Shown here in pieces: positions 26,279 to 56,050 of a stretch of DNA of 64,000 nucleotides. The translations under genes were made by a program, and so were the position numbers. The stretch comes from Fundidesulfovibrio soli. GTDB lineage: Bacteria > Desulfobacterota > Desulfovibrionia > Desulfovibrionales > Desulfovibrionaceae. The stretch lies in the NCBI RefSeq assembly GCF_022808695.1, contig NZ_JAKZKW010000005.1:1-64000 (forward strand), given 5' to 3'. Position 1 is the stretch's first letter, and each line of letters starts with the position of its first letter. The notes beneath the pieces are model-generated. The model was not told the DNA's origin and did no database searches. It saw only the letters and a list, made by a program, of their open reading frames with translations.

Positions 26279-26700
26279 TGCCTCGCCAAGGTTGACGCCC
26301 AGGAGGCTCCCCCGGTGTGCGTCTCCTCATCCAGGTCCTTGATCCTCGCCCGGTGTGGCTTGGGGGCAGATGGATATGCCAGGGCAAGGACAGCCTTGAT
26401 GATGCGTCCGGCCGATGCCAGCCAAAGCGGAGAGTGGCGTGACTCCGCCTTTCGAAAGCGTATCTATCTCGTGTCAGCGCCTCAGTTTGTAGTATCGCCT
26501 GTCCTGCAGAGGGTTGGGGGGGGCGGCACTTCAAAGTCACCTTCGCGCTCCCGACGCTGCATCGACAGGGTTGCGTTGCAATGCAAGCTCTGTTGGAGGT
26601 GGCTCAGTTGGCAGTATGATGTATCTGCTTGTGTTTTAAGCGCGTACTGTGGAGGATATCGTTGTCTCGTCACGTTCTTGCATCCCAAGTGGAAGTCATT
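26279..26700. other. Gene-free stretch before hddC
   Basis: I see no convincing gene. Open frames on both strands here are rich in Arg/Ser/Pro/Cys and lack ribosome sites. The composition is mixed, with a run of eight G at 26516-26523, and may be decayed DNA at an island boundary. Confidence 0.5.
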
Positions 26701-27426
26701 ATGCAACTCGATGAAGCTGTGATTTTGGCGGGTGGCCTTGGAACCAGATTGCGTAGCGAAGTTGCCGACTTGCCCAAGGTGATGGCCCCGATAAACGGGA
26801 GGCCGTTTTTAGAATATCAGCTCGCACACTTGGCGAAAAAAGGATTCAGGCGGGTGATTCTGGCGGTTTCCTATCTTCGGGAAACGGTCATGGAACACTT
26901 CAAATCCGAATTCGCTGGGCTGCGTATAGACTATTCCGTGGAGATATCCCCCCTGGGGACCGGCGGGGGCCTCCGGCAGGCGCTTTCGCAGGTGGAAGGG
27001 GCAGCGGCCTTCGCATTCAATGGGGATACATACTTTGACGTGGACTATGCAGGCATGGAGCGCCAATGGCTCGACGCCAGCGGTGCGGGCGTCTCCATGG
27101 CGCTTAGGAGTTTGTCAGACGCCAAGCGCTACGGCATGTGTCGCATCAATAATGGGCGGGTGGTCGGATTTGCTGCTGGTGGCGGCAACGAACCCGGTTT
27201 TGTGAACGGAGGCTGCTACATCCTCCCCAGGGACGTGTTTGGAGGCTTCTCCCTGCCGCAGACATTCTCTTTCGAGGCAGATTTTCTGGAGGCTCATGCG
27301 GACTCGTTGCGTCCGATGGCCTTTCTGGAAAGCTCTGACAATTTTTTTATTGATATCGGTGTTCCTGAGACGTACCGGCTTGCGCAAGGATTGTTCGGCC
27401 GGGTCGGGGAATTTCCGAAAGAATGA
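26701..27426 (+). CDS. hddC: D-glycero-alpha-D-manno-heptose 1-phosphate guanylyltransferase-like nucleotidyltransferase
   Basis: A 241-residue sugar-phosphate nucleotidyltransferase. It has the signature AVILAGGLGTRLRSEVADLPKVMAPINGRPFLEYQL with the pyrophosphorylase loop (GGLGTRLR) and Lys in LPK, then GTGGGLRQAL and FNGDTYFD with the metal-binding Asp, and FIDIGVPETY near the end. The short, single-domain form and the nearby HddA-type kinase point to HddC, which makes GDP-D-glycero-D-manno-heptose. A mannose- or glucose-1-phosphate nucleotidyltransferase role is possible. The ATG at 26701 has GGAAG upstream. It converges on the minus-strand glycan cluster. Confidence 0.78.
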   Translation: MQLDEAVILAGGLGTRLRSEVADLPKVMAPINGRPFLEYQLAHLAKKGFRRVILAVSYLRETVMEHFKSEFAGLRIDYSVEISPLGTGGGLRQALSQVEGAAAFAFNGDTYFDVDYAGMERQWLDASGAGVSMALRSLSDAKRYGMCRINNGRVVGFAAGGGNEPGFVNGGCYILPRDVFGGFSLPQTFSFEADFLEAHADSLRPMAFLESSDNFFIDIGVPETYRLAQGLFGRVGEFPKE

Positions 27427-27457: not shown

Positions 27458-28204
27458 TCATCCGATGAAGTTCCGGAATACAAAGTGCGGGTATATCTGT
27501 TCGGAGCACAGGCCGTCGCGACGGATGACGAAATCCTCAACGGCCTCGGTGGCTCCGATGCAGGAGGATGCAGTGGCGTCGTCAAACACCAAATAACCAC
27601 CATTCACCATGTAGGCCCTGCTGGCCTCGTAGGAGTATTTGACCGCGTGGTAGATGTCGCAGTCGATGTGAGCCAGAGAAATCGCTCCCGCCTGCTGCAA
27701 CACCTGCGTGGCAGTATCCTGGAAGAGTCCGGGCACCACGTGGAGGTTGGTTAGGCCGAACGCGGTCGCGGCAGACCGGACTTCGTCTGCATTGGTGTTG
27801 GCGAAGTCGCCGGCATGGTGTGCGTCGATGGCGGGGTCGGTGGCTGGCATGCCGCTGAAGGTGTCCAGCGCGAAAACATGCGTTTGGGGGAGAAACTTCC
27901 GCGCCAGGGCAGCCATGAAAAATGCTGATCCGCCACGGTAGGAGCCGTATTCGATGATATGCCCCACCGGAATTCTCGGTAAGAAGTATTTGATCAGGAG
28001 AAACAGGTTCATTATCCGGTCGAGCATAAGGATCGAACGGCCTGAGGCGTATTGGAAAGCTTCCTGATAGTCGGGATCGGCGGCAATCTGTTCGCGCAAA
28101 TTCTTGAATTCGAGCCCGACGCCGCGCAGGTATCCCTCCTGGACGCAGCGGCCGCGCCGGATGGGAAATTCGGGAGTTGCGGACAGGGGAAAATACTCGT
28201 CCAT
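27458..28204 (-). CDS. TylF/MycF-type SAM-dependent O-methyltransferase
   Basis: A 248-residue class I methyltransferase. The SAM loop is HIIEYGSYRGGSAFFMAALARKF (about 81-103), followed by VFALDTFSGMP and LAHIDCDIYHAVKYSYEASRAYMVNGGYLVFDDATA, where paired acidic residues could bind a metal. This pattern fits the TylF/macrocin O-methyltransferase group that methylates sugar hydroxyls. In a gene cluster with glycosyltransferases and sulfotransferases it is likely a glycan methylase; the acceptor is unknown. It is the most downstream minus-strand gene of the island and is preceded by a ~500-bp gap. Confidence 0.8.
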   Translation of the reverse strand: MDEYFPLSATPEFPIRRGRCVQEGYLRGVGLEFKNLREQIAADPDYQEAFQYASGRSILMLDRIMNLFLLIKYFLPRIPVGHIIEYGSYRGGSAFFMAALARKFLPQTHVFALDTFSGMPATDPAIDAHHAGDFANTNADEVRSAATAFGLTNLHVVPGLFQDTATQVLQQAGAISLAHIDCDIYHAVKYSYEASRAYMVNGGYLVFDDATASSCIGATEAVEDFVIRRDGLCSEQIYPHFVFRNFIG

Positions 28205-28700: not shown

Positions 28701-31235
28701 CTATATGATGCTTGTATAGCCAACGTACTTGTAAATGTCGGCGCACTGGATGTCGATCAGCTCCTGCTGGAGCGGGGTCAGGGAAGTTGTATTCGAAGAC
28801 GCGGTCTTGCTGCAACTGGCAGACAGTCCGGCTCGGACACGCTCCTTCCAGTCTTCAGCGTACGCGATGCCGCATTTATGCAAGAAGTCCAACATGAATT
28901 CGTCCCCGGCAGGCGTGTCCAGAGCGCGTACCATGCTACGGAAGTGATCGAAGTCGAGCACGAATTGTGCGCGGGGAAGCCATTTTATACAGTAGTTGAT
29001 GTAGCTTTCACGTAGCGATGGAAAGTAAAGGTTGTCCTCGTTGCCGTACAACACGAGGTTGAAAAGATCATCGTGTCCCAATTGGTGGGTGCGCGCAATT
29101 TGCGCCCAGGGGATGATGTTGGCCCAAGTTGGTGACGAGAGCATCGTAATAAGTGACGCGGCATATCTTTTCGGATGTCGTAGCAGCAGAAAGATGTTGG
29201 AATTGCGTACAAGCCACAATGCCTGCGGTGACCACCACAAATGCGCAAACGTGAATCCGTCAGTATGTCCGCCCCGTTCTTCGATCTTTTTGTGTGTGGC
29301 TAGAACCTCGGGGTTGTCGCGAAGCATTTCCCTGCTGTAGGTTTCCGTGTAATCGTAAGGTGTCTTGTGCATGTTGGCAAAGTGGCGGAGGATATTGCTG
29401 ATCATGTGCGTCCCGCATTTGGGAAGAGACACCTGGATCAGGGGCTTTTCGAGTCTCTGGATGCTTGCGACTCTAGATATTGATGTCTCCAGATTTTCGT
29501 CGCACGACATAATGCTCTGGTCCTCGTTCAAGGGGTGACGCTCAAACCCGTAAAGCATCACAGATAGGGAACGTGAATCAAGCCAGTCGCCAAGTTCTGA
29601 TGGAATGCATGACTTGTCGCATTCGAAACGCAGAGTGTATGTCCGGCGTTCAGGTGTGGCAATTGTTAATGAAATTGGCTGTCTGTCACGAATGTGCAGA
29701 GTGTCATGTAGCTTGCCGTCAATATAAATATTCAATTGTGCCGGAAGGTTGCCTGAGATTTCAAGCAGCGAAGTAGAGGCGATGGTGAATTTGAGACAAC
29801 ATTGCCCCGGTGAGAATGAGGCGATTTCAGAAAAGTCGGAGAGCATGACCCTTGCGCCATCTTCAATCCAGGCGTCCTTTATTGGCACAAGAGCCTGAAA
29901 AGGAGGAGGGTTCTTGAGAAGCATGTTCCCTGAAAGGTACTGGAGTGCATTGTTTCGGATCTTGATCGCCGTGATTTTGTCGCGGTATTCATCCACAAGG
30001 GTGTGCAGTTCCTGCACGCTCACGTTTGTCCCCATGTACAGTTCGTGCCCCATGCGAGAGGCGTCAAAGCGAGACCAGTCCATGTCGTCTGATACTAGAC
30101 CCATGGTTTTGGCCTGATCCCAGACTGCCGTGCCAGGGTAAGGCCTGAGGGCGCCCCAGGCTATGTCATGGAGCTTGCCTGCTTCAACATTTTCTAAAAC
30201 CTTGTCCAGCGTCAGCAGAATGTCTTCCCTGGTCTCGATGGGGGTGCCGAAGATGAAACCCGCATTGGCCATGATCCCGTGCTTGTGCAGGATATCGAGA
30301 GCCCTCTGATTTATGGCCGCAGTAACAGGTTTCTTGTTGAAGTAGGTGAGGATTTTATCATTGAAAGATTCGACACCAAGGCCGCAGTCCTTGACGCCCA
30401 GTTCAACGAGCAATTCGCAGACTCCATCAGTTATGAGATTGGTCCTGGCTTGGCACGAATAAGTACATTTGCCGAGGAGATCCCTTTCTTTCAACAATTC
30501 GATCAATTGGGCGACACGTTTTTTTTCGGCAATGAACAAGTCGTCAAAAAAAACGATGTGCTTGACATTGTCCGATATGAACTCCTCAATCTGTGTCGCG
30601 ACTCTTTCAATTGAATTTGTCCTGTAATTATTGAAAAAGCGAGAGGAGGCGCAGAAGGAACATTTATAGGGGCAACCGCGGGCCGAGAAGATATGCGTGC
30701 ATCCCGTGTTGCTGTAGAATGGCAGATTCTTGTAGTCAGGGACGGGTAATGAGTCAAGATTCTTGATGAGCTCCCTTCGCCGGGTCTGTACGGGTTTTCC
30801 GCCCTGAAAGAAGAACAGCCCGTCAATGTCGCGAAGAGCTTTGAAGTTGAAGCCGTTGAATGCTTTGTATGACTTGAGCAGTTCGACAATGGTTTGTTCG
30901 CCCTCGCCGATAACAGCGATGTCAAACGCCTCATGCAACGATAGAGGCTGCAGCGATATATGGACACCGCCCAGGATGATGGGGATGTTAAGCTTGTCTT
31001 TGATGGTTTTTGCAAAGTCGATGGCCAGATGGTAGTTTTCAGTAACAGCACTGATGCCGGCGATATCCGGCTTGGCTTCGAGCAACTCCTCTATGCTCTC
31101 GTGGAGGAGAACCTCCACGCCGGGACAACTCGTTTTGATGCTGGCGGCAATAAATCCTATGCCCAACGGAACAAGCCCGTTTGCGCTGCCAACGCCTTTC
31201 CCTTCCCTAGTAGCCAGAATTAATGAGATTTTCAT
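28701..31235 (-). CDS. B12-binding radical SAM protein fused to a sulfotransferase domain
   Basis: An 844-residue multidomain protein. Residues 1-125 form a B12-binding-like Rossmann domain (GGVHISLQP at 89-97, VIGEGEQTIVELL at 108-120). Residues 175-420 form a radical SAM barrel with the cluster ligands C188, C192 and C195 (CPYKCSFC), then GVESFND and FIFGTPIETREDI. Residues ~450-570 look beta-rich, like a small carbohydrate-binding fold. Residues 595-820 match a sulfotransferase, with the PAPS 5'-phosphosulfate loop SLPKCGTHMISNIL (603-616) and a 3'-phosphate-type segment LLLRHPKRYAASL. The ATG at 31235 has AGGA upstream; an upstream TTG was not chosen. Composition is AT-rich. Substrate is unknown, and the fusion is one I do not recognise as described. 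Confidence 0.85.
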   Translation of the reverse strand: MKISLILATREGKGVGSANGLVPLGIGFIAASIKTSCPGVEVLLHESIEELLEAKPDIAGISAVTENYHLAIDFAKTIKDKLNIPIILGGVHISLQPLSLHEAFDIAVIGEGEQTIVELLKSYKAFNGFNFKALRDIDGLFFFQGGKPVQTRRRELIKNLDSLPVPDYKNLPFYSNTGCTHIFSARGCPYKCSFCASSRFFNNYRTNSIERVATQIEEFISDNVKHIVFFDDLFIAEKKRVAQLIELLKERDLLGKCTYSCQARTNLITDGVCELLVELGVKDCGLGVESFNDKILTYFNKKPVTAAINQRALDILHKHGIMANAGFIFGTPIETREDILLTLDKVLENVEAGKLHDIAWGALRPYPGTAVWDQAKTMGLVSDDMDWSRFDASRMGHELYMGTNVSVQELHTLVDEYRDKITAIKIRNNALQYLSGNMLLKNPPPFQALVPIKDAWIEDGARVMLSDFSEIASFSPGQCCLKFTIASTSLLEISGNLPAQLNIYIDGKLHDTLHIRDRQPISLTIATPERRTYTLRFECDKSCIPSELGDWLDSRSLSVMLYGFERHPLNEDQSIMSCDENLETSISRVASIQRLEKPLIQVSLPKCGTHMISNILRHFANMHKTPYDYTETYSREMLRDNPEVLATHKKIEERGGHTDGFTFAHLWWSPQALWLVRNSNIFLLLRHPKRYAASLITMLSSPTWANIIPWAQIARTHQLGHDDLFNLVLYGNEDNLYFPSLRESYINYCIKWLPRAQFVLDFDHFRSMVRALDTPAGDEFMLDFLHKCGIAYAEDWKERVRAGLSASCSKTASSNTTSLTPLQQELIDIQCADIYKYVGYTSII

Positions 31236-31319
31236 TGAAATGTCCTGCGGGCACAAGTTTTGGTTGAATATGGTGGCAAATGGTAATGCTTGAAATCAGG
31301 ATATGCAGGCGCGCGACTC

Positions 31320-32342
31320 TTACGCCCAAGTCACAAGGCCGTGTTCGACGAATTGAACGTTCAGGCACGTGACATCGAATGCCTGGAGCGACTTGACAAC
31401 GTCGTACCGCGCCACCCCCGGGCAGTAAAGCATCATATATCCCCCGCCTCCAGCTCCGGATATCTTGGCGCCCAAGGCTCCGGCATCCAGCGAGGTGGAA
31501 ATTATCGAATCCAGCCAGGGGTTGCTGATCCTGTCTGACGTTCGCTTTTTACTTTCCCAACTCATGCGTAGGATACGCCCCAGCGTGTCCAGATCTCCCG
31601 TCAAGACGGCGCGCTTCATGTCGTATGCAGCGCGTTTTACCTCGTGAAGAGCGGAGAGTTTCTGTTCGTCGCCCTCGGCCATGATCCCCTTCTGGGTGTC
31701 GATGATCTGCGCCGATTCCCGACTGACTCCGGTGCCTACTAGCAATAGGTTGTGTTCCAGTTCTCGCAGAGTATCCTGTTTGACGCGCAGCGGGTTGACC
31801 AGCACGTTTCCGTTGGTCTCGAACTCCATGAAATTGAACCCCCCGAACGTGGCGGCGAACTGGTCCTGCTTGCCGCCGGAGAGGCCCAGGTCAATGCGCT
31901 CGATGTCGAAGGCGAGTTGGGCGATTTCGTATTCTCCGAGGGGGATCTGCAGCCATTCGCAGAAGGCACCGATTATTGCCACAACCAATGTGGAAGAAGA
32001 GCCGAGGCCGGAGCCTGGCGGCGCGTCAACCGCGGTGGTCAGCTTGAAGGAGAGCGGAGCATGCGCGTAGTCCCTGACGATGCGGTTGTATACGCCGATG
32101 GCCAGCTTATGCTCGGGAGTCACGGCAAGTTGCGGGGCGCAATCGAATGTGCTGGAGATGCAGCGATCCATGGAGCAGAAGGAGATGGCGCCCTTGTCAC
32201 AGGGTTCGATCGTTGCGTGGGCGTACCGGTTGATGGTCGCGTTGAGTATTGCGCCTCCATGCAGCGAGGAATACTCCGGGATGTCCGTACCACCGCCGCC
32301 AAGTCCGAGGCGCAATGGAGCACGTGATCGATAAAATTTCAT
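31320..32342 (-). CDS. hddA: D-glycero-alpha-D-manno-heptose 7-phosphate kinase-like GHMP kinase
   Basis: A 340-residue GHMP kinase. Motif 1 APLRLGLGGGGTDIPEYS lies at about 8-25, motif 2 DAPPGSGLGSSSTLVVAI near 103-120, and motif 3 AKISGAGGGGYMMLYCP near 300-316. The GGGGTD pattern and length match HddA, which phosphorylates heptose 7-phosphate at C1 for GDP-heptose synthesis; fucokinase-type and other sugar kinases are close relatives. GGGGGAG lies upstream of the ATG at 32342. HddC is on the opposite strand 4 kb away, while GmhA and GmhB are not in the window. Confidence 0.85.
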   Translation of the reverse strand: MKFYRSRAPLRLGLGGGGTDIPEYSSLHGGAILNATINRYAHATIEPCDKGAISFCSMDRCISSTFDCAPQLAVTPEHKLAIGVYNRIVRDYAHAPLSFKLTTAVDAPPGSGLGSSSTLVVAIIGAFCEWLQIPLGEYEIAQLAFDIERIDLGLSGGKQDQFAATFGGFNFMEFETNGNVLVNPLRVKQDTLRELEHNLLLVGTGVSRESAQIIDTQKGIMAEGDEQKLSALHEVKRAAYDMKRAVLTGDLDTLGRILRMSWESKKRTSDRISNPWLDSIISTSLDAGALGAKISGAGGGGYMMLYCPGVARYDVVKSLQAFDVTCLNVQFVEHGLVTWA

Positions 32343-32379
32343 ACTTTGTTCTCCCCCGGTTCTGTCGTTACGGAGGTGA

Positions 32380-33126
32380 TCATGCACGGCTTATGTCCCT
32401 ATTGTCCGTGAAAGGCGGGGTATCACTGTTGGCCGCCTTTAATGTCTCGAGGTCATTACGGTACTGGTTGAAGTGAACGGTTTCCTCATTCCCCATGACA
32501 GCGTCTTGAGGTGGCCGACGCCCACCGGATTCTTGTTCAGACAGGGGGCGTTTTCTCACGATGAATTCTATGCCGCATTCGGCCACGGGCGTGAGAGTCT
32601 GATCGTATCGCGGTAAATGATATCTGTAGCCTGCGTTCAGCAGCATGATGCGTTCGATTTCGGCCTGCTGTCCGAGTCCTGCGAGCAACTCCGTCACATT
32701 TATTGAGCGAGTCGACCACGAAGCGCACTTGTGGATGGTGAAGGTCCACTTGTGGTCTTTGTTGAAGGTGGAAGGAAAATGACCTTGCTCGTAGAGATCC
32801 TCGTCGGGCACTGTGACGATCAGGAAGCCGCCGGGCCTGAGCACGCGCATCCAGTGCGCGAGACCTCTGCGCGGTTCGGCCAGGTGCTCTAGGCAATGGC
32901 TGGAGTGAACGAAGTCCACGCTTTCGTCCTGGACGGTTTCAAGCAGTTCGGCGTCACCTTCTTCCTTGTCCCAGGTTTTTACTGAGCGCATGAGCGGGAA
33001 CAATTCCGCATAGAGCGCCAGCGGGTCAGGTTTTCCCCCCAGGTCGAGGCCATGGCCGACAAAATAGCGTCGCACGAATAATGAATCTTGGAGCCTTCTG
33101 GCTATGGATTTGCTGCATTCTTTCAT
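32380..33126 (-). CDS. Class I SAM-dependent methyltransferase (type 11)
   Basis: A 248-residue methyltransferase. The SAM-binding motif is degenerate, HGLDLGGKPDPLALYAE (25-41), followed by SVDFVHSSHCLEHLAEPRRGLAHWMRVLRPGGFLIVTVPDEDLYEQGHFPS, the standard motif II/III block of Methyltransf_11. EGHWE-like sequences are absent. C-terminal residues 205-248 are polar and probably disordered. It lies 8 bp after the giant glycosyltransferase and 37 bp before hddA, so it is in the same operon and likely methylates a sugar or sugar-nucleotide. Confidence 0.8.
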   Translation of the reverse strand: MKECSKSIARRLQDSLFVRRYFVGHGLDLGGKPDPLALYAELFPLMRSVKTWDKEEGDAELLETVQDESVDFVHSSHCLEHLAEPRRGLAHWMRVLRPGGFLIVTVPDEDLYEQGHFPSTFNKDHKWTFTIHKCASWSTRSINVTELLAGLGQQAEIERIMLLNAGYRYHLPRYDQTLTPVAECGIEFIVRKRPLSEQESGGRRPPQDAVMGNEETVHFNQYRNDLETLKAANSDTPPFTDNRDISRA

Positions 33127-33134
33127 GTCGGTTG

Positions 33135-36100
33135 CTATTGCCTGTTAAGCTGGCAGCCTACTGCGCGCAGAATGTCTTCCACCTGTCGCATTGCTGCCTT
33201 TGTTGAGTAGTTGTCCATCACAAAACGCAATCCAGCCTGGGAAAGACGCTCCCAAAGCGCGGCATCGGTATAGAGACGCACGACGGCGTCGGCGAAATCC
33301 TGAGGTTGTTCCGCGACCAGCACATGCTCCTGGTCCACGAGTCCCATGCCTTCCGTCGCCACCGACGTGCCGACGCAGGGGCGGCCAAAGCTGAGGCTGG
33401 TGGCAACCTTGCCTTTGATACCGGCTCCGTAGCGCAAAGGGGCGACACTGAGCCTGGCGGAGGTAAAGTAAGGCGTGAGGTCTTCCACGAAGCCGGTGAC
33501 GATGACATCCTCGCGGGCCTGGGCGAGCAAATCCGCTGGAGGCTCGCTGCCAACGATGTAGAGCTTGACGTCGGGGAGGTGTTGCTTCACGAGCGGGAAT
33601 ATTTGCTGCAGGAAGTACAGGGCGGAATCCACGTTGGGCGGATGACGGTAGCCGCCAAGGTGTACGATATCCCGTGTTGATTCGAAGGGGGCCAGGCTGC
33701 CGGGTACTGGGATGCACCATCCATAAAGCTTGACCAGTGCGTTTGGTGCTTCTTTCTCCAAGTATTCCAACTCGTACTGGCTGTGTACAATGGTGCAGTC
33801 GGCTGCGCCGATTACAGCCATTTCCCGGACTTTGGTTTCCAGCGCAGACAGCATGAGCGCGTCGTCGGCACGCAATTCGGCTTCACGGATTTCACGGATA
33901 TGGTGCAGGTCGGAAGTGAAGAACACCAGCTTGGCGGATGGTGCGTGCGTACGCAAGGTGTCCATGCAGCGTGCAGCTACGGTCATGCGGAACACAACGA
34001 CAAGGTCGAAAATGTCCCCCTCATGCTCCAGGAATCCCTGCACAGTACGGTGGTGAGGGCCATGTATCACCTCGATGCCAAGACGCCGCAGATCGTCAGT
34101 GTATCGCGGAATATAGGCGAAGTTGTCTTCGGGGATGAAGGTGACTTTGTAGCCGAAATGCTGCAACAGACGCATCAGGCCGAATGCGGTTAATGAGCCG
34201 GCATCCTGGTCTGGCTGGGGGGTGCACGCATCAATGACCAGCACGCGGCCAAGCACGCAACGGTCCTTGGTAATCTGCGGCATGACGCCGGACCTGCCCA
34301 GCGGAGCTATCTCAGAGCGCCAACGCGTCTTGAGCTTGAGTGCATTCGCCTGTTGGTAGCTCTTAACGCCGCAGTTGACCGATTTACCGCAACTGATCCC
34401 CTCGAAGTGCACAAGTTTCGAAAGAGGTTGATACACCACCCGGCGACCCTTCTGGCGAACACGGAAGGCAAGGTCGGAATCTTCTCCATAGGCGGGGGCG
34501 AAGTGTTCGTCGAAGCCGCCGAGGCTGACCCAAAGATGTTTGGGGATGGCCAGTGACGCCCCGGAACAGTAATCGACATTGCGCAGGTAATTGTATTCGG
34601 GGCGGCTAGGGTCTTCGTAGCGGCCATAGTTCCAGGCGGAACCGTCTTCCCAGATGATGCCGCCCGCTTCCTGAAGTTGGCCGTGAGGATACAGGAGCAT
34701 GCTGCCTGCGAGGCCAACGTCCGGGAAATTCTGGAAGGTGCAGATCAACTCATTGAGCCAACCAGGCAATACATAAGTGTCGTTGTTAAGCAGAACTACA
34801 TACTGGCCCAAGGCTCCTGCCGCGCCCAGGTTGCAGCTGCGGAGGAAGCCTTGGTTCACCTCATTGCGCAAAACCTTCACCCACGGGATCATACCGAGGA
34901 GCTGGTGTGTGGGGTCAGTTGAGGCGTCATCAACGACGATAACCTCGAAGTCGCAGCTTCCGTCCAGTCTGGCTAGCGAAAGCAGGCACAGAAGGGTGTG
35001 GAATATCTGATTGTGGACAGGGATGACGATGGAGGCTGTCGGCTCGCTAGAACGTGTTACGGAGGTGCGGCCATTGATCTCGGTAATCATCCCCATGAGG
35101 GTCTCCGGAGTGGACGCCCTGCACCCTCCGACCACGAAGTTGTCAATGAAATCCCGCACCGGGGACACGCCCTCGGAGATATCCATGCTCCGCCAGGAAA
35201 GGTAGAAATCAAGATTGAACTCGGCGCAGGGCAATGCGTTCTGGTCGACCCCCTCAGTGACAAAGTGCTCCAAGGCTCCGCAAGACCGTGAGTTGAGTTC
35301 GGGGTGCTGGCTGCGGTAGAAATGCGGGTCAAATATGGGCAGCGGGCGCAGGCCCAAGTTTTCCCCCACTTCCAGGTAATGACGGAAAGGGGCAAGTCCG
35401 GACGCGCAAACCTCGGTATACTGCTCCCTGTAGTAGGCCGCGTCGAAAAGAGGATGGGGGCTCAAGCCTTGGTCAGCCCCCACTGCCAGGAAATGCTCGT
35501 AGGGGGGGAGGCCGCAGGTGGTACTCTCAGGGCATGCCGACACATAATAATCGGACGCAAAAAGGGGATGCGGGCTTACCCCTTGCATGAGGCCGTGTTC
35601 AAGAAAATGGGCGAACGCGGGGCCAGCCAAGCCTGGCGGCATGTGACGAGCCCTGTAGTATTCATCGGAAAACAGCCAGGAGCACCTTCTGTTCTCGGTT
35701 TTGCCGAAGTTAAGGTAGTGGGTGAAAGGAGCGATCCCAGCTTCGGCCACATCAGGATTGATAGTGACGTAGGCCGCAGGGTCGAACCCTCGGATCTGGC
35801 TGAAATTGTTTCGGATGGCCTGTTGCAGGGGCTTGTGCTGGATGCCCAGCCAGCGGACCAGGGCCAAAAGGCGGTTGGTGAAGGCCTCCCGGGCCTGAAG
35901 TGTCTTGCAGAGGGCCGCAAGGATCTGGCCGGAACTGGCTGCCGGGTGTTGATTTCCTGTCAGGTGCTGGGCGAGGTTCGCCAGACAGGATGACATTTCC
36001 GCATTATGGCGGTTTGAGGCGGCTAGATCGTGACGAAGTGTCGTTTCCCTGGCGACTGCGGCCTCCTGCTCCTTGCGTCCCTTGAGCAATTGTTGGTTAG

Positions 36101-37550
36101 CCTCGTCGTAGATGGCATTCAGCTTCTCCAGTTGGGCATAGCAATCGTTCAGGGCGTTCTCGTCGAGTAGATGGAGTTGCCGACTTTGCTCCGCATCCTC
36201 CAGTGCCTGCTCCAATTTTTCAATTTCAGTCTGACTGATGCCGGCTAGCTCCTCCGCATGAGAGCGGTAGCGGTTTAACTCCTCGTCTTTTTCTTTCAGA
36301 CTCCGGGAGAGAATCTCCGCCTCCTGGCGCCGTGACGCTAGTTCGTTGCGGAGTGTCTCCAATTCAGCTCTTTTGGCGTTAAGGTCGGAGAGCGCTTGAG
36401 AAAATTGTGTGTCTTTATTGAGGAGCGCCGAAGTAAGTCTGCTGATGTCGCCTTCTAGGTGCTCGGAATGGGCGCGTTCATACGGACTGCTGGAAGAGTC
36501 TGCTGAGGTTCTTGGAGTCTGCCCAGGCGAAATGGAATCATTATGCACGGTGAAAGACGAAACAAGCACAGAATCATCGACAGGAGTGGCTGGCTGAGGA
36601 GGGGCGGCATCTGGGGAAGTGAAGCTGATGGACTCGTTGATAAATTGGAACTGAGAAAAAAAGAGGAAAAGATCGTTGCGAGCGGCTTCCTTTTCGGGAT
36701 CAGATGAGCCTGTGTGGAGCAATTTAGAGTGGACGTAGCTATAAATAGTTTGCTTGTGAGGCTTCCCGGTGTTGTGCTGCAGGTCGCTGATGATCGTGCT
36801 TCGCAGTATCTGTCCTACAGAATAGGAGGAGCAATTCGTGGAAATGCCAAGAAACGCCAGGATGTTTTCAAGAGTCTCGGCTGGGTGCTGGAACCAACTG
36901 TCGTAATTGACTATGTGCCAGTCCAGGGGGTGTGCGTTGAGAAACAGTTCGCCGTAGTGCCTCAGCCAGAGCAGAAGTCCGGTACCGACGGGTATGGAGT
37001 TGCGTTGTTGCAACGACGACGCCACTTGATAAGGATCTCGAACGCACAGGATGATTTTAAAAGGGATCTGTAGCTTGTTGAATAATTCCAGCCAGAGGGG
37101 CAACAGGCGTAAGGCGCGGGGATCTTTGAAGCCAAAGGGGGTCTGCGTGTTCAGCGAACCGAGGTAATCGATCAGTCGTTGCTTATAGTTATGAAGTGCG
37201 GGGTCGCGCCACCAAGTGCAGGGCATGGCGTCGGTGCTGTCCCAAGATCTGCCGAGCGCATCTAGAATATCATCCTGTAGACGCATGATTTCCCAGCGCT
37301 CCCAGTGCCCTTCCTGGTTCGAGTCGCATTTGACAGGGTCGTCAGCCCCCACCATGTCGATGCCGATTTTGTGCAGGATGGAGGAGCAAAGGGATGTGCC
37401 ACTTCGGTGCATACCAAGAATGAAGACAAGGGGCGGCCGTGTGCTGACGAGAGCAGGTGATTTCCGACCTTTACTCCGTTCTGAAGGTCTCAATTGGTGC
37501 TTTTCAGTCTTCTGCGGTTTAGCCATACGCAATGATCCCCATTCAGACAT
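33135..37550 (-). CDS. Giant sulfotransferase / coiled-coil / FDxxYY-repeat / GT2 / GT4 protein
   Basis: A 1471-residue, five-part protein. Residues 40-260: sulfotransferase with PAPS loop LGMHRSGTSL (45-54) and a 3'-phosphate-type RDPYQVASSL (171-180). Residues 310-365: Ser/Pro linker. Residues 365-530: charged coiled coil. Residues 588-800: five to six units of about 37 residues, each with FDxxYY, then a PxxHYLxxG-like end (589, 627, 664, 702, 740, 778). Residues 838-1060: GT2 with VIPVHNQ, VVDDAS, LLNNDTY and GEDSDLAFR. Residues 1100-1470: a GT4-like domain with HLGGYRHPPNVDSALYFL and GAGIKGKVATSLSFGRPCVGT. An alternative ATG at 37526 would shorten it by 8. It probably builds and sulfates a polysaccharide at the membrane; substrate is unknown. 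Confidence 0.88.
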   Translation of the reverse strand: MSEWGSLRMAKPQKTEKHQLRPSERSKGRKSPALVSTRPPLVFILGMHRSGTSLCSSILHKIGIDMVGADDPVKCDSNQEGHWERWEIMRLQDDILDALGRSWDSTDAMPCTWWRDPALHNYKQRLIDYLGSLNTQTPFGFKDPRALRLLPLWLELFNKLQIPFKIILCVRDPYQVASSLQQRNSIPVGTGLLLWLRHYGELFLNAHPLDWHIVNYDSWFQHPAETLENILAFLGISTNCSSYSVGQILRSTIISDLQHNTGKPHKQTIYSYVHSKLLHTGSSDPEKEAARNDLFLFFSQFQFINESISFTSPDAAPPQPATPVDDSVLVSSFTVHNDSISPGQTPRTSADSSSSPYERAHSEHLEGDISRLTSALLNKDTQFSQALSDLNAKRAELETLRNELASRRQEAEILSRSLKEKDEELNRYRSHAEELAGISQTEIEKLEQALEDAEQSRQLHLLDENALNDCYAQLEKLNAIYDEANQQLLKGRKEQEAAVARETTLRHDLAASNRHNAEMSSCLANLAQHLTGNQHPAASSGQILAALCKTLQAREAFTNRLLALVRWLGIQHKPLQQAIRNNFSQIRGFDPAAYVTINPDVAEAGIAPFTHYLNFGKTENRRCSWLFSDEYYRARHMPPGLAGPAFAHFLEHGLMQGVSPHPLFASDYYVSACPESTTCGLPPYEHFLAVGADQGLSPHPLFDAAYYREQYTEVCASGLAPFRHYLEVGENLGLRPLPIFDPHFYRSQHPELNSRSCGALEHFVTEGVDQNALPCAEFNLDFYLSWRSMDISEGVSPVRDFIDNFVVGGCRASTPETLMGMITEINGRTSVTRSSEPTASIVIPVHNQIFHTLLCLLSLARLDGSCDFEVIVVDDASTDPTHQLLGMIPWVKVLRNEVNQGFLRSCNLGAAGALGQYVVLLNNDTYVLPGWLNELICTFQNFPDVGLAGSMLLYPHGQLQEAGGIIWEDGSAWNYGRYEDPSRPEYNYLRNVDYCSGASLAIPKHLWVSLGGFDEHFAPAYGEDSDLAFRVRQKGRRVVYQPLSKLVHFEGISCGKSVNCGVKSYQQANALKLKTRWRSEIAPLGRSGVMPQITKDRCVLGRVLVIDACTPQPDQDAGSLTAFGLMRLLQHFGYKVTFIPEDNFAYIPRYTDDLRRLGIEVIHGPHHRTVQGFLEHEGDIFDLVVVFRMTVAARCMDTLRTHAPSAKLVFFTSDLHHIREIREAELRADDALMLSALETKVREMAVIGAADCTIVHSQYELEYLEKEAPNALVKLYGWCIPVPGSLAPFESTRDIVHLGGYRHPPNVDSALYFLQQIFPLVKQHLPDVKLYIVGSEPPADLLAQAREDVIVTGFVEDLTPYFTSARLSVAPLRYGAGIKGKVATSLSFGRPCVGTSVATEGMGLVDQEHVLVAEQPQDFADAVVRLYTDAALWERLSQAGLRFVMDNYSTKAAMRQVEDILRAVGCQLNRQ

Positions 37551-38011
37551 CAAAAAACAGGCCTTTGCAATAATGTCCTTGAATATGATGATCAGATAGG
37601 TGGTGCTGCACGTTTATGCCTACGAATGAACAGTTTGATCATGATTTGTAAGCTAAATTTGGTTGGTGTCAAGTTATATGTCGGGGAAAATAAGCTGACA
37701 CTATTGCGCTGCCCGGTATGGCAAGAGTCGAAAAATTAGCCCCGGGGGTGAGTATACTGACTTGAAATCCATGAAAGACCGGCAGTCAAGCATCAGGCAC
37801 AGGTGGAAGGGGTTGTCTCAGTCGAGCCAGCGATTCAGCGCCGAGGAAGGTAGATAGGTGAAGCAAATATGCAATTCTCCGAAGATGCCATTGGGAGGCG
37901 CGTAGTGTGCCTTCAACCCGTTGCACTTCCTTCCGGTCTCCCGGGAATGCAGGACAATGTGTGCGAATTTGCCGGATGCCGGTATCCGGACCGCTGGTTG
38001 AGTGAGTACAA
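37551..38011. other. Upstream region of the glycan operon
   Basis: There is no convincing gene. The first ~150 bp are AT-rich and hold the candidate promoter described separately. The rest has only short frames without ribosome sites. Confidence 0.5.
37645..37672 (-). promoter_or_regulatory. Candidate promoter of the minus-strand glycan cluster
   Basis: Reading the minus strand, TTGACA (37672-37667), 16 nt, TACAAA (37650-37645), in AT-rich DNA about 95 bp before the start of the giant glycosyltransferase. Confidence 0.5.
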
Positions 38012-48741: not shown

Positions 48742-51700
48742 ATGCCAAGCGCCCCCCGGGACGCCATCGGCCTCTGTCTTGGGGCCTCCTCCATATCCTT
48801 CGCCCAGGTGCGTCGTGAGGCAGGCGTGGTCCGCCTCACGCGGGGCGGTTCCGTGCCCCACAACGGCGATCCCGCCCGGACGCTCCTTTCCGTCCTCGAA
48901 TCCATTCCCGATTGGCGCCAGCTGCCGTTGGCGGCCACCGGCAGGCGGCTGCGCTCCATGGTGGCCCTGCCTTCGCTCAGCGAGCCCGAGGCCGTGGAGC
49001 TGGCCGCCGCGCACGCCCTTGGCGGTGCCGGGGCCGTCACGGTGCTCAGCGTGGGCGGCGAGACGTTCATGGCCTACGGCCTGGACGCCCACGGCAGGGT
49101 GCGCTCCATCCAATCAGGCAACAAGTGCGCCTCGGGCACGGGGGAGTTCCTGCTCCAGCAGCTGGGGCGCATGGGCCTGGCCGTGGAGGACCTCTCCGGC
49201 ATGGACCACGCGGCCGAACCGCACGCGGTCTCCGGCCGCTGCTCCGTGTTCTGCAAATCGGACTGCACCCATGCCCTGAACAAGGGCGCGCCCCGGCAGG
49301 AGGTGGTGGCCGGGCTTGGGCGCATGATGGCCGGGAAGTGCCTGGAGCTGCTCACGCGCATGTCCGTGGAGCGCGTGCTGCTGGCGGGCGGCTGCGCCGC
49401 GAACCCCTATCTGCTGCGCTTCCTGCGCCGGGAGCTGCCCGGGCTGGAGGCCCCCGGGAACGCGGCCTGGTTCGAGGCCACGGGCGCGGCCCTTTGGGCT
49501 TTGGACCACGCTGGGCCGGTGGGCGGCGCGGAGGTGTTCGCCCCGCGCGCCGGAAGCTTCGTCCGGTTCGGGCCGCTGTCCGAAGCGTTGGGCCTGGTGG
49601 AGTTCAAGGAGCACCCCAGGGGCCAGGCGCGGGAGGGCGACGTGGTGCTCGTGGGCCTGGACGTGGGGTCCACCACCACCAAGGGGGTGGTGGTGCGCCG
49701 CGGCGACCGGGCGGTGCTGGCCGGGGAGTACCTGCGCACCGAGGGCGACCCCGTGGGGGCCTCCCGGCGCGTCTACGCCAGCCTCGCCGCGCAGCTGGGC
49801 GCGCCGGTGCGCATCGTGGGCCTGGGGGTCACGGGCTCGGGGCGGGCCATCGCGGCCCTGCACGCCTCGGCCACGGCTGCCATCAACGAGATCGTGGCCC
49901 ACGCCGCCGCGGCCCTGCACTACGACCCCGCCGTGGACACCATTTTCGAGATCGGCGGGCAGGACGCCAAGTACACCAGCCTGAGCGCCGGGCAGCCCTG
50001 CGACTCCGCCATGAACGAGGCCTGCAGCGCGGGCACCGGCTCCTTCCTGGAGGAGTCCGCCCGGGAGTCGCTGGGCGTTCCCACGGACGCCATCGCGGAG
50101 CTGGCCCTGGCCGCCGGGAGCACCCCCAACTTCAACGACCAGTGCGCGGCCTTCATCGGCTCGGACATCAAGCTGGCCGTGCAGGAGGGCCTGCCCCTGG
50201 AGGACATCCTGGCCGGGCTGGTGCACTCCGTGTGCCTGAACTACGTGAGCCGGGTCATGGGCAGCCGCCCCGTGGGGGAGCGCGTGTTCATGCAGGGCGG
50301 GGTCTGCTACAACCGGGCCGTGCCCGCGGCCATGGCCATGCTCACGGGCAAGCGCGTCGTCGTGCCGCCCGATCCCGGGCTCATGGGCGCGCTGGGCGTG
50401 GCCCTGGAGGTTGACCAGCGCATCGCCCGGGGCGTGCTGGCCGAAGGGTCGTTCGATCTGGACGAACTGGCCGGGCGGGAGGCCCGCCAGCGCGAGCCCT
50501 TCACCTGCCGGGGCGGCAAGGGCGGCCAGCACGGGTGCGACAGGGGCTGCCGCATCGCCCGCATCGAGGTGGGCGGGACGGTGCATCCCTTCGGCGGCAT
50601 CTGCAACCGCTTCGAGAACCTGCGCCAGGGCCGCTCGCCGGACGCCGCCGCGCTGGACCTGGTCATGGCCAGGCACCGCCGCGTCTTCAGGGACCTGGAG
50701 CCGTCCGCGCAAGACGGCCAGCCGGACAATCGCCCCAAGGTGGGGCTCAACCGCTCCTATCTGGTGAACACCTTTTTCCCGCTGTTCGACGCCTTCTTCA
50801 AGGAGCTGGGCTACGGGGTGCTCCTGCCGGAGCGGGCCGACCCCGAAGGCGTGAAGCGTCGGGGCGCGGCCCTGTGCTACCCGGGCGAACTGGCCCACGG
50901 CTTCCTGGCCGACCTGCTGGCCCGCAGGCCGGAGGCCGTGTTCCTGCCGCACATCAGCGGCGTGCCGGGCGAACCGGGTCAGGCCACGTCCTGCACCTGC
51001 GTGCTGCTGCAGGGCGAGCCGTTCTACCTGCGCAGCGCCTTCGGGGAGCTGGCCGCCTACGGCCCCAGGCTGCTGCGCCCCACGCTGGACTTCACGCGCG
51101 GCCTTGAGGCGGCCGAAAAGGCCATGCTGGGGGCCGCCCGGGACCTGGGCGCGGACGCCCGCGCGGCGCGCCGGGCCTTCGCCGCCGGGGTGGATGCGCA
51201 GCGAGCCTGCCGGGCGGACCTGGAGGCCCTGGGCCGCGAGGCCCTGGAACGGTTGGCCCAGGGCGACGGCGCGGTGCCCGGGGTGGTGCTCTTCGGCCGG
51301 GCCTACAACGCCTTCGCGCCCGAGGCCAACAAGGCCGTGCCCGAGAAGCTGGCCACGCGCGGGGCCATGGTCATCCCCTGCGACATCCTGCCCCTGCCCC
51401 GGGACCTGCGTCCCGAGCGGGCCGTGTACTGGGGCCAGGGCCGGGTCATCCTCCAGGCGGCCCAGGCCGTGAGCCGCCACCCGGACCTCTACGGAGCCTA
51501 CGTCACCAACTTCTCCTGCGGTCCGGACTCCTTCCTGCTGGGCTACTTCCGCGACGAGATGGGCACAAAGCCGTCCCTGACCCTGGAGCTGGACAGCCAC
51601 ACGGCGGACGCGGGCCTGGAGACGCGGCTGGAGGCCTTTCTGGACATCGCCGGGAGCCACAGGCGCGGCACCCAGGCCGGAGGGCATGGAGCCGGGAGGG

Positions 51701-55264: not shown

Positions 55265-55288
55265 TCGAGTCGTGAACAAGGATCGCAA

Positions 55289-56050
55289 ATGACAACGCCA
55301 CTTAAAATGTCCGCCAGAAACCTGGACTTCTACTACGGGGACTTCAAGGCCCTGCACTCCGTGGACCTGGACGTGCGCACCAACGAGGTCACCGCGCTGA
55401 TCGGGCCGTCGGGCTGCGGCAAGTCCACCTTCCTGCGCTGCCTCAACCGCATGAACGACCTCATCGACATCGCGCGTGTCGAAGGCGAGTTGCTTCTGGA
55501 CGGGCAGGACATATACAAGGGCGGGATGGACGTTGTGGAGCTGCGCCGCCGCGTGGGCATGGTCTTCCAGAAGCCCAACCCCTTCCCCAAGACCATCTTC
55601 GAGAACGTGGCCTACGGCCTGCGCGTCAACGGGTCCACGGACAACGCCTTCATCGCCGGGCAGGTGGAGAAGAGCCTCAAGCAGGCCGCGCTCTGGAGCG
55701 AAGTGAAGGACCGCCTGCACTCGAACGCCCTGGGCCTCTCCGGCGGTCAGCAGCAGCGCCTGTGCATCGCCCGGGCCCTGGCGGTGGAGCCCGAGATCCT
55801 GCTCATGGACGAGCCGGCCTCCGCGCTGGACCCCATCGCCACCCAGAAGATCGAGGAGCTCATCCACGAGCTCAAGGAAGACCTGACCATCATCATCGTC
55901 ACCCACTCCATGCAGCAGGCCGCGCGCGTCTCGGACATGACGGCCTTCTTCTACATGGGCAAGCTCATCGAAATGGACCAGACCGAGACGATCTTCACCC
56001 GTCCGGCCAACAAGCAAACCGAAGACTACATCACCGGCCGCTTCGGCTAG
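55289..56050 (+). CDS. pstB: Phosphate ABC transporter ATP-binding protein PstB
   Basis: PstB powers high-affinity phosphate import with PstA/PstC. The 253-residue protein has Walker [10 protein letters not shown] at 39-47, the PstB-specific [17 protein letters not shown] and [25 protein letters not shown] signature LSGGQQQRL, and [13 protein letters not shown] as Walker B. It lies 24 bp after phoR and 10 bp before phoU in one operon. pstS, pstC and pstA are not next to it, so the transporter genes are split. Confidence 0.95.

Follow-up and report, generated by a model that had tools for sequence, protein, structure and literature searches.

Polymerase-terminator proteins, as portrayed in the sections drawn on here from two published accounts (PMC11231755, PMC5082667), have their capping enzyme and their glycosyltransferase (GT) modules at opposite ends of a coiled-coil ruler, either in one chain or in a complex; the coiled coil of WbdD is quoted there at about 200 Å (PMC5082667), and in Escherichia coli O9a the carbohydrate-binding module of Wzt recognises terminated chains, according to part of PMC3482155. 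Here, we analyse a gene of Fundidesulfovibrio soli that lies on the minus strand at positions 33135-37550 of a 64,000-nucleotide stretch of DNA (positions 1 to 64,000 of contig NZ_JAKZKW010000005.1, hereafter the window), and whose product joins a sulfotransferase (ST) to a coiled coil, a repeat array and two GT domains. We propose, giving it about an even chance, that this product is a one-chain polymerase-terminator of the WbdD/WbbB type for a surface glycan, in which sulfate is the likely cap, the coil a spacer or ruler and the repeats a joint.

According to this proposal, the C-terminal pair of GT2 and GT4 domains would build or extend a glycan chain in the cytosol, while the N-terminal 3'-phosphoadenosine 5'-phosphosulfate (PAPS) sulfotransferase, held at the far end of the coil, would act on chains that have grown far enough to reach it and sulfate their distal end. 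Sulfate on the chain end would then stop growth and mark the chain for export, the part played by methyl or phosphomethyl in the case of WbdD, and the six repeats would form the joint that holds the capping half to the polymerising half.

The gene is one unbroken frame (ATG at 37550, stop at 33135, 1471 codons counted from the ATG), and a frame artefact as the source of so long a protein was rejected, since the open reading frame (ORF) list gives the frame without interruption. Along the protein, Sulfotransfer_3 is followed by the coiled coil, six repeats of 37-38 residues (REP), GT2 and GT4. An earlier note, made from the sequence alone, had called this long frame with the same coordinates and five modules, and the ORF list, Pfam, a heptad test and repeat profiles agreed with it; the module calls likewise bore out its claim that one protein joins glycan assembly and a sulfotransferase. 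The Kyte-Doolittle mean of 19-residue stretches peaks at 1.56 over the whole protein, and because none reaches 1.6, the protein looks soluble and cytosolic. We take the NND and GED-DL motifs of GT2 and the E-x7-E motif of GT4 to have the roles usually given to them. The features of the gene are:

33135..37550, minus strand: whole gene, 1471 codons from ATG, with a TTG at 37553 and another in-frame ATG at 37526.
36681..37445, minus strand: sulfotransferase domain Sulfotransfer_3 (Pfam PF13469, residues 40-237, E 3.3e-12, 47.6 bits against a curated cut-off of 27; family profile, residues 36-290; AlphaFold2 and Foldseek).
37392..37415, minus strand: 5'-phosphosulfate loop GMHRSGTS, its residues invariant or conserved to at least 90% in an alignment of 37 domains.
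35946..36470, minus strand: coiled coil of about 165-175 residues, with weak heptads mid-way (heptad power, 0/2000 shuffles).
35109..35786, minus strand: six 37-38-residue FDxxYY...HYLxxG repeats (REP), supported by profiles, shuffles and an AlphaFold2 model, with three short helices predicted in each of repeats 3-5.
34281..35066, minus strand: GT2 glycosyltransferase domain (Pfam Glycos_transf_2, residues 840-955, E 1.5e-19), NND and GED-DL motifs present by alignment.
33138..34256, minus strand: GT4 glycosyltransferase domain (Pfam Glyco_trans_1_4, residues 1293-1429, E 7.8e-24), with Thr at the first Glu of E-x7-E and the second Glu present by alignment.

Judged by its loops and its predicted fold, the N-terminal domain is a PAPS-type sulfotransferase. 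Across the 37 aligned domains, the window's included, conservation is 90% or more for GMHRSGTS, for KDPR and for the R, P, V and S of R-x-P...V-x-x-S; both loops are intact in the window protein (GMHRSGTS and RDPYQVASSL); we take RSGTS to be the 5'-phosphosulfate-binding loop and R-x-P...S to be the 3'-phosphate motif. The PAPS-contact residues on which the earlier note had staked its call are thereby predicted, from sequence and model, to be in place. The AlphaFold2 model of the domain has a predicted local distance difference test score (pLDDT) of 90.3, and a Foldseek search of the PDB gave 57 matches at E<=0.001, headed by the olefin-synthase sulfotransferase domain and by TPST1/2 with 3'-phosphoadenosine 5'-phosphate, with sulfotransferases named in the titles of 49 of the best 50 of the 57. 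Similarly, a sequence profile search of the PDB returned 58 matches at E<=1; their names or entry titles mark them as sulfotransferase-fold proteins, and they include retinol dehydratase, which we take to have this fold. Loops and fold are thus like those of PF13469 PAPS sulfotransferases, among which the olefin-synthase domain and TPST1/2 are nearest in structure, whereas the fusion to coil, repeats and GTs sets the window domain apart from them.

The gene is the sole Sulfotransfer_3 match in its own genome, which also encodes, on contig C1 (the window itself lies on C5), a 571-residue ATP sulfurylase-adenylyl-sulfate (APS) kinase fusion that could supply PAPS. The presence of APS kinase was rejected as a diagnostic of sulfation, as it was matched in 30 of 30 genomes tested. 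Intact ST loops and fold, this kinase fusion and a Wzt_C gene in the same genome argue for the terminator proposal. The loops, the fold and the kinase fusion also weigh against the idea that the ST domain is inactive, or has another acceptor, which would leave just a GT2-GT4 enzyme whose N-terminus is structural. Several sulfotransferase-like domains of genome G082 (L070:2802-4688, L134 and L161) have damaged loops, one of these domains lying within a coil-REP protein, and are possible pseudo-enzymes; that such domains exist in the family speaks for inactivity, as does Aeromonas salmonicida, where part of PMC4483657 describes a sulfotransferase-domain ORF after wzt, an O-antigen seemingly without a matching sulfate and a separate WbbB. 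Nevertheless, with the loop residues intact, a predicted fold that makes a good sulfotransferase and a possible source of PAPS in the genome, we regard this idea as improbable.

The coiled-coil segment, residues 361-535, is free of proline, and its heptad periodicity was matched by 0 of 2000 shuffles, the signal being weak at about 420-489 in 42-residue windows. By arithmetic at 1.5 Å per residue and with full helicity assumed, a 165-residue helix would be about 250 Å long, similar to the length quoted for WbdD. The suggestion in the earlier note that the coil could set chain length is supported by the module order, which is that of polymerase-terminators with a coiled-coil ruler in the cited portion of PMC11231755, and by relatives that often stand directly after wzm-wzt. 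Coil-like residues number 123 to 972 in 14 gap-free proteins, as counted by a crude filter that takes in some residues outside the coil proper, and this spread would offer a natural series for probing how such proteins measure sugar chains. Between sulfotransferase and coil, a segment with the motif R.DPLN..G occurs in L162:1952-6409, L042:2110-4206, L043:1265-3466 and L039:3659-6616, and is absent from the window protein; by eye, it is perhaps a beta-sandwich, to be compared with the carbohydrate-binding module noted for ORF6-O7 in a passage of PMC11231755.

We surveyed other bacteria with a scan for the motif [LT]GMHRSGTS, which gave at least 576 confirmed candidates; the best 80 loci of the 576 were kept, and these hold 86 ST frames, with more than one in a few loci. 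With selection by this one motif, a crude composition-based coil filter and GT domains detected with the window's own, 52 of the 86 frames pass as coil-bearing and 34 lack a coil, 18 have a GT domain, 11 have REP, and 6 combine coil, GT2 and GT4, one of the six with REP. In all 18 GT-bearing frames, the ST lies N-terminal of every detected GT domain. An ST at the C-terminus in L154, L158, L159 and L160 was set aside, since visual inspection suggests that the stretches N-terminal to it are read-through preceding the true start. The ST-coil-(REP)-GT order, matching that of the one-chain O12 and O7 proteins, and the N-terminal position of the ST throughout, are among our reasons for the terminator proposal.

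That the protein is unique was rejected: by predicted domains, the ST-coil-REP-GT2-GT4 layout also occurs elsewhere. A protein from a Thiocapsa metagenome-assembled genome (L219:414-5642) carries the five modules in the same sequence as the window protein, with 40.6% identity over 803 columns of REP-GT2-GT4, and differs in having three repeats and extra sequence after GT4 that is WbsX-like by eye. In Sphingomonas pokkalii (L195), the same modules in the same order are split between two overlapping frames, ST-coil-REP1 and then REP4-GT2-GT4.

The surroundings of the ST frames link the family to wzm-wzt, the genes of an ATP-binding cassette (ABC) transporter. A Wzt-like frame lies directly upstream on the same strand in 18 of the 86 (-178 to +51 nt away, measured from one stop-to-stop frame to the next), and 14 of these 18 Wzts have a Wzt_C domain. 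Among 46 frames with at least five hydrophobic segments, found in 35 of the 80 loci, 22 matched ABC2_membrane, 8 Acyl_transf_3 and 3 ABC2_membrane_3, while Polysacc_synt_3, Polysacc_synt and Wzy_C were each matched once. That ST frames follow Wzt, mostly with Wzt_C, and that ABC2_membrane far outnumbers Wzx/Wzy-type matches is a further reason for the terminator proposal, and we infer that the glycan of the window locus, too, may be exported by an ABC transporter.

The same gene order weighs against the ST being a decorating enzyme that sulfates internal sugars of every repeat unit, with GT2-GT4 adding two sugars and the coil only oligomerising the protein and setting no length. In favour of that role, units are finished before polymerisation in the Wzx-type pathway, and the nearest ST relative found (genome G473) adjoins a Wzx-type flippase; moreover, no ABC exporter lies near the window gene, and coil-less ST frames are common (34/86). 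Set against this are the wzm-wzt-ST order, the Wzt_C domains and the few Wzx/Wzy matches in the family loci, as well as a coil placed between ST and GT whose length is highly variable, and on balance we find a decorating role rather unlikely.

For the terminator proposal, the repeats matter as the putative joint, and here the separate-gene relatives are informative because they can carry REP at the facing ends of both halves. A second REP frame occurs in the locus of 6 of the 10 ST frames that have REP and no detected GT, as opposed to 5 of 75 without REP (Fisher p 1.8e-4, for loci that are not independent by descent and in some cases cut short); the remaining four frames, with lengths of 1328-1672 residues, may hold other enzymes. 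In eight ST-coil-REP pairs, from six survey loci and genomes G001 and G071, REP stops 2-9 residues before the C-terminus of the ST protein, and the partner frame has its first repeat starting between residues 31 and 203; six of the eight partners have a detected GT (L195, L246, L216, L051 and L190, and L068 by Pfam). This enrichment and the terminal position of REP in the pairs support the terminator proposal, and REP sits where WbdD recruits its polymerase. In genome G140, a methyltransferase-coil-REP gene is followed after 1.3 kb by a REP-WbsX-RgpF gene, an arrangement that repeats this layout with a different candidate for the capping enzyme. The earlier idea that the repeats could bind a partner thus stands in part: in the eight pairs, REP lies near the C-terminus of the ST protein and recurs near the N-terminus of the neighbouring protein. 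Docking between two different REP proteins within the F. soli genome was rejected, as it has a single REP gene.

Alternatively, REP could be a glycan-binding module that holds the growing polymer or tethers proteins to surface glycan, with no docking joint involved. Consistent with this, REP is common to cytosolic glycan enzymes and to presumably exported RTX/M10 proteins, whose shared surroundings are glycans rather than any single partner; its copy number runs from 1 to 35 profile matches per frame, and it has conserved aromatic, His and Gly positions. The aromatics could, however, be helix-packing residues, the model has no fold match in the PDB and hence none to a solved lectin, and REP at facing protein ends with enriched second REP frames fits a joint, so that we hold a purely glycan-binding role to be doubtful.

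The six repeats occupy residues 589-814 by a profile that includes the window copies, and a profile built from other genomes only recovers five of the six with 118 bits in all, against shuffles of which 3 in 500 reach E 1 (best 7.6 bits); the sixth, the most degenerate, is missed by this independent profile and by a later iterated one. The AlphaFold2 model of the array has a mean pLDDT of 80.1. Scores are about 88-96 in repeats 3-5, each with three short helices, and 48-56 across the gapped part of the alignment between the middle of repeat 1 and the middle of repeat 2; they drop once more at the end. No Pfam family scored above cut-off for the six repeat segments searched, on which grounds TPR (tetratricopeptide), Sel1 and other Pfam repeats were rejected, and no NCBIfam model did so for the five searched. 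A PDB fold search with the repeat model found its best match only at E 9.0, PDB sequences gave 0 matches to the repeat profile at E<=10, phage records gave 1 weak match, a PHROGs search led nowhere, and VIA-align on 4 chains gave no Z of 2 or more. In BFVD, the model gave marginal fold matches to giant-virus glycosyltransferase-like and DUF5672 proteins, the best of them at E 0.02.

The repeat nonetheless has counterparts elsewhere, in plasmid records and family genomes, as the earlier note had asked of it. REP occurs in 30 of 150 genomes of the order, 13 of 148 of a phylum sample and 63 of 288 of the family, samples that overlap and include the F. soli genome, and in 88 of 72,556 plasmid records. 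Of 60 of the 88 plasmid rows, read by eye, 40 are annotated as glycosyltransferase, methyltransferase, GH99-like or lipopolysaccharide biosynthesis; the others comprise 6 of exported type (three M10 peptidases, one Ig-like, one hemolysin-type and one Hint), 4 hypothetical and 10 unannotated. As far as profile matches tell, REP is a recurrent part of many bacterial glycan enzymes, with no name, model or structure in the libraries searched. A plasmid protein of Azospirillum sp. B510 (L071:3181-8496) has 35 REP profile matches in one frame, many of the copies alike, and two adjoining Pseudoroseomonas M10 peptidases (L073:3690-5711 and L073:5849-7882, with Pfam run on the first only) end in six REP copies.

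Related sulfotransferases (E<=1e-8) are encoded in 58 of 288 family genomes. ST-coil-REP frames without a detected GT were found in G001, G020, G071, G101, G473 and G476, where the coil of G473 is seen only by a laxer filter, G071 belongs to the same taxonomic order and to another family, and a second copy in G020 is broken by a run of N. The gene directly after is a GT with REP in G001 and G071, a GT2 in G476, RgpF-WbsX after the interrupted G020 copy, an adaptor gene in G101 and a flippase gene in G473. ST, GT2 and GT4 share one 1180-residue frame without repeats in G314, and ST-coil-GT4 frames occur in G447 and G155. The nearest ST among those found is that of G473 (44%), while the GT pair is nearest, among 119 genomes, that of G314 (50%; 49.6% identical over 617 columns of GT2-GT4), which suggests module exchange. 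Plasmid p1 of Desulfolutivibrio sulfodismutans (L072, 52 kb) has three consecutive genes, of which the first is an ST-coil-REP gene annotated as hypothetical, the second codes for a periplasmic adaptor and the third for an adenylyl-sulfate kinase. A single-protein scan of genome contigs gave 42 stretches, none of them confirmed.

Several observations weigh against the terminator proposal. No Wzm-like frame was found in the whole window, its only Wzt-like frame is short (261 residues, 55265-56047) and 18 kb off, and the genome's single Wzt_C gene is on contig C1 beside other GTs. The flippase gene after the nearest ST found, the A. salmonicida case, the selectivity of the survey and its crude coil filter count in the same direction. 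The first Glu of the GT4 E-x7-E motif is missing in 4 of 7 aligned GT4 domains, the window's among them; relatives have T, S, R, M or E at this position, and all 7 retain the second Glu. Concerning the joint, no REP partner lies inside loci L181, L198, L208 and L244; no GT was detected in the partners of L203 and L186, for which no Pfam search was made; the L190 partner is on the other strand and that of L186 is 1.6 kb away; and a REP frame also overlaps next after three ST-coil frames without REP (L226, L221 and L209). Elsewhere in the ST-coil-REP genomes, REP is found in no other gene of G101, only in the two ST genes of G020, and in further frames of G473 and G476 only on other contigs. In addition, REP is present in the presumably exported M10 proteases, and the F. 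soli genome has it in this gene only (no other match at E<=0.001).

The window gene heads an apparent operon with a methyltransferase, a GHMP kinase and a B12 radical SAM protein. The neighbouring genes are:

32380..33126, minus strand: methyltransferase, next gene in the apparent operon after an 8-nt gap (Pfam, ORF list).
31320..32387, minus strand: GHMP kinase like D-glycero-D-manno-heptose 7-phosphate kinase (NCBIfam NF049969, 370 bits, under its cut-off of 600).
28701..31256, minus strand: B12-binding radical SAM protein, C-terminus without Pfam or PDB match (Pfam).
27458..28204, minus strand: TylF-type methyltransferase (Pfam).
26629..27426, plus strand: nucleotidyltransferase like heptose-1-phosphate guanosyltransferase HddC (NCBIfam NF049965, 200.8 bits, under its cut-off of 300).

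GDP-heptose is a lead only, because both heptose models score under their curated cut-offs. Two motifs can be picked out by eye in the C-terminal part of the B12 radical SAM protein, namely LPKCGTH, which resembles a P-loop, and RHPKRYAASL; a second, very divergent sulfotransferase there was unsupported by the profile (2.3 bits), Pfam or PDB. The G+C content is 0.51-0.58 over 27-39 kb, the glycan cluster, compared with 0.61-0.74 in the other 3-kb blocks shown, and in 59 related genomes none of the matches listed covers more than part of the window protein; because of this low G+C and these partial matches, the cluster looks like an acquired, variable island. No multi-span membrane frames were seen between 21.5 and 64 kb of the window, and its sole tRNA is at 49414-49492.

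More broadly, we tentatively suggest, judging it slightly more likely to fail than to hold, that sulfation is a widespread and hitherto undescribed way to cap and size bacterial surface polysaccharides, with ST-coil proteins replacing WbdD after wzm-wzt and the three-helix REP acting as a plug and socket that joins capping to polymerising enzymes, in trans or fused. If so, sulfate would join the known chain caps (methyl, methylphosphate and Kdo, 3-deoxy-D-manno-oct-2-ulosonic acid), sulfated chain ends would be predicted on many bacteria, the frequent sulfotransferase after wzt would be explained, and a nameless repeat that decorates many bacterial glycan enzymes would gain a first testable role. 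The cap enzyme of O12 WbbB uses a Kdo donor.

In the open-access literature, surveyed mostly at listing level, we found no sulfotransferase chain terminator, no account of REP, no match to the motif strings and no relevant sulfotransferase-GT fusion; the word sulfotransferase has 0 occurrences in PMC11231755. Compared with known systems, the window protein is built like the one-chain Klebsiella pneumoniae proteins WbbB (serotype O12) and ORF6 (serotype O7), as set out in the cited part of PMC11231755, with a cap enzyme at the N-terminus, a coiled coil in the middle and two GT modules towards the C-terminus. Capping is the work of a glycosyltransferase in O12 WbbB and of a methyltransferase-kinase in O7 ORF6 (same passages of PMC11231755), whereas it would fall to a sulfotransferase here, and, unlike for those two, no exporter was found adjoining the window gene. 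In WbdD/WbdA of E. coli O9a, the cap enzyme sits on a coiled-coil ruler whose other end is tied to the polymerase, according to sections of PMC3482155 and PMC5082667. The split ST-coil-REP and REP-GT gene pairs resemble this format, with a sulfotransferase in place of the kinase-methyltransferase of WbdD and REP in place of its C-terminal recruitment region.

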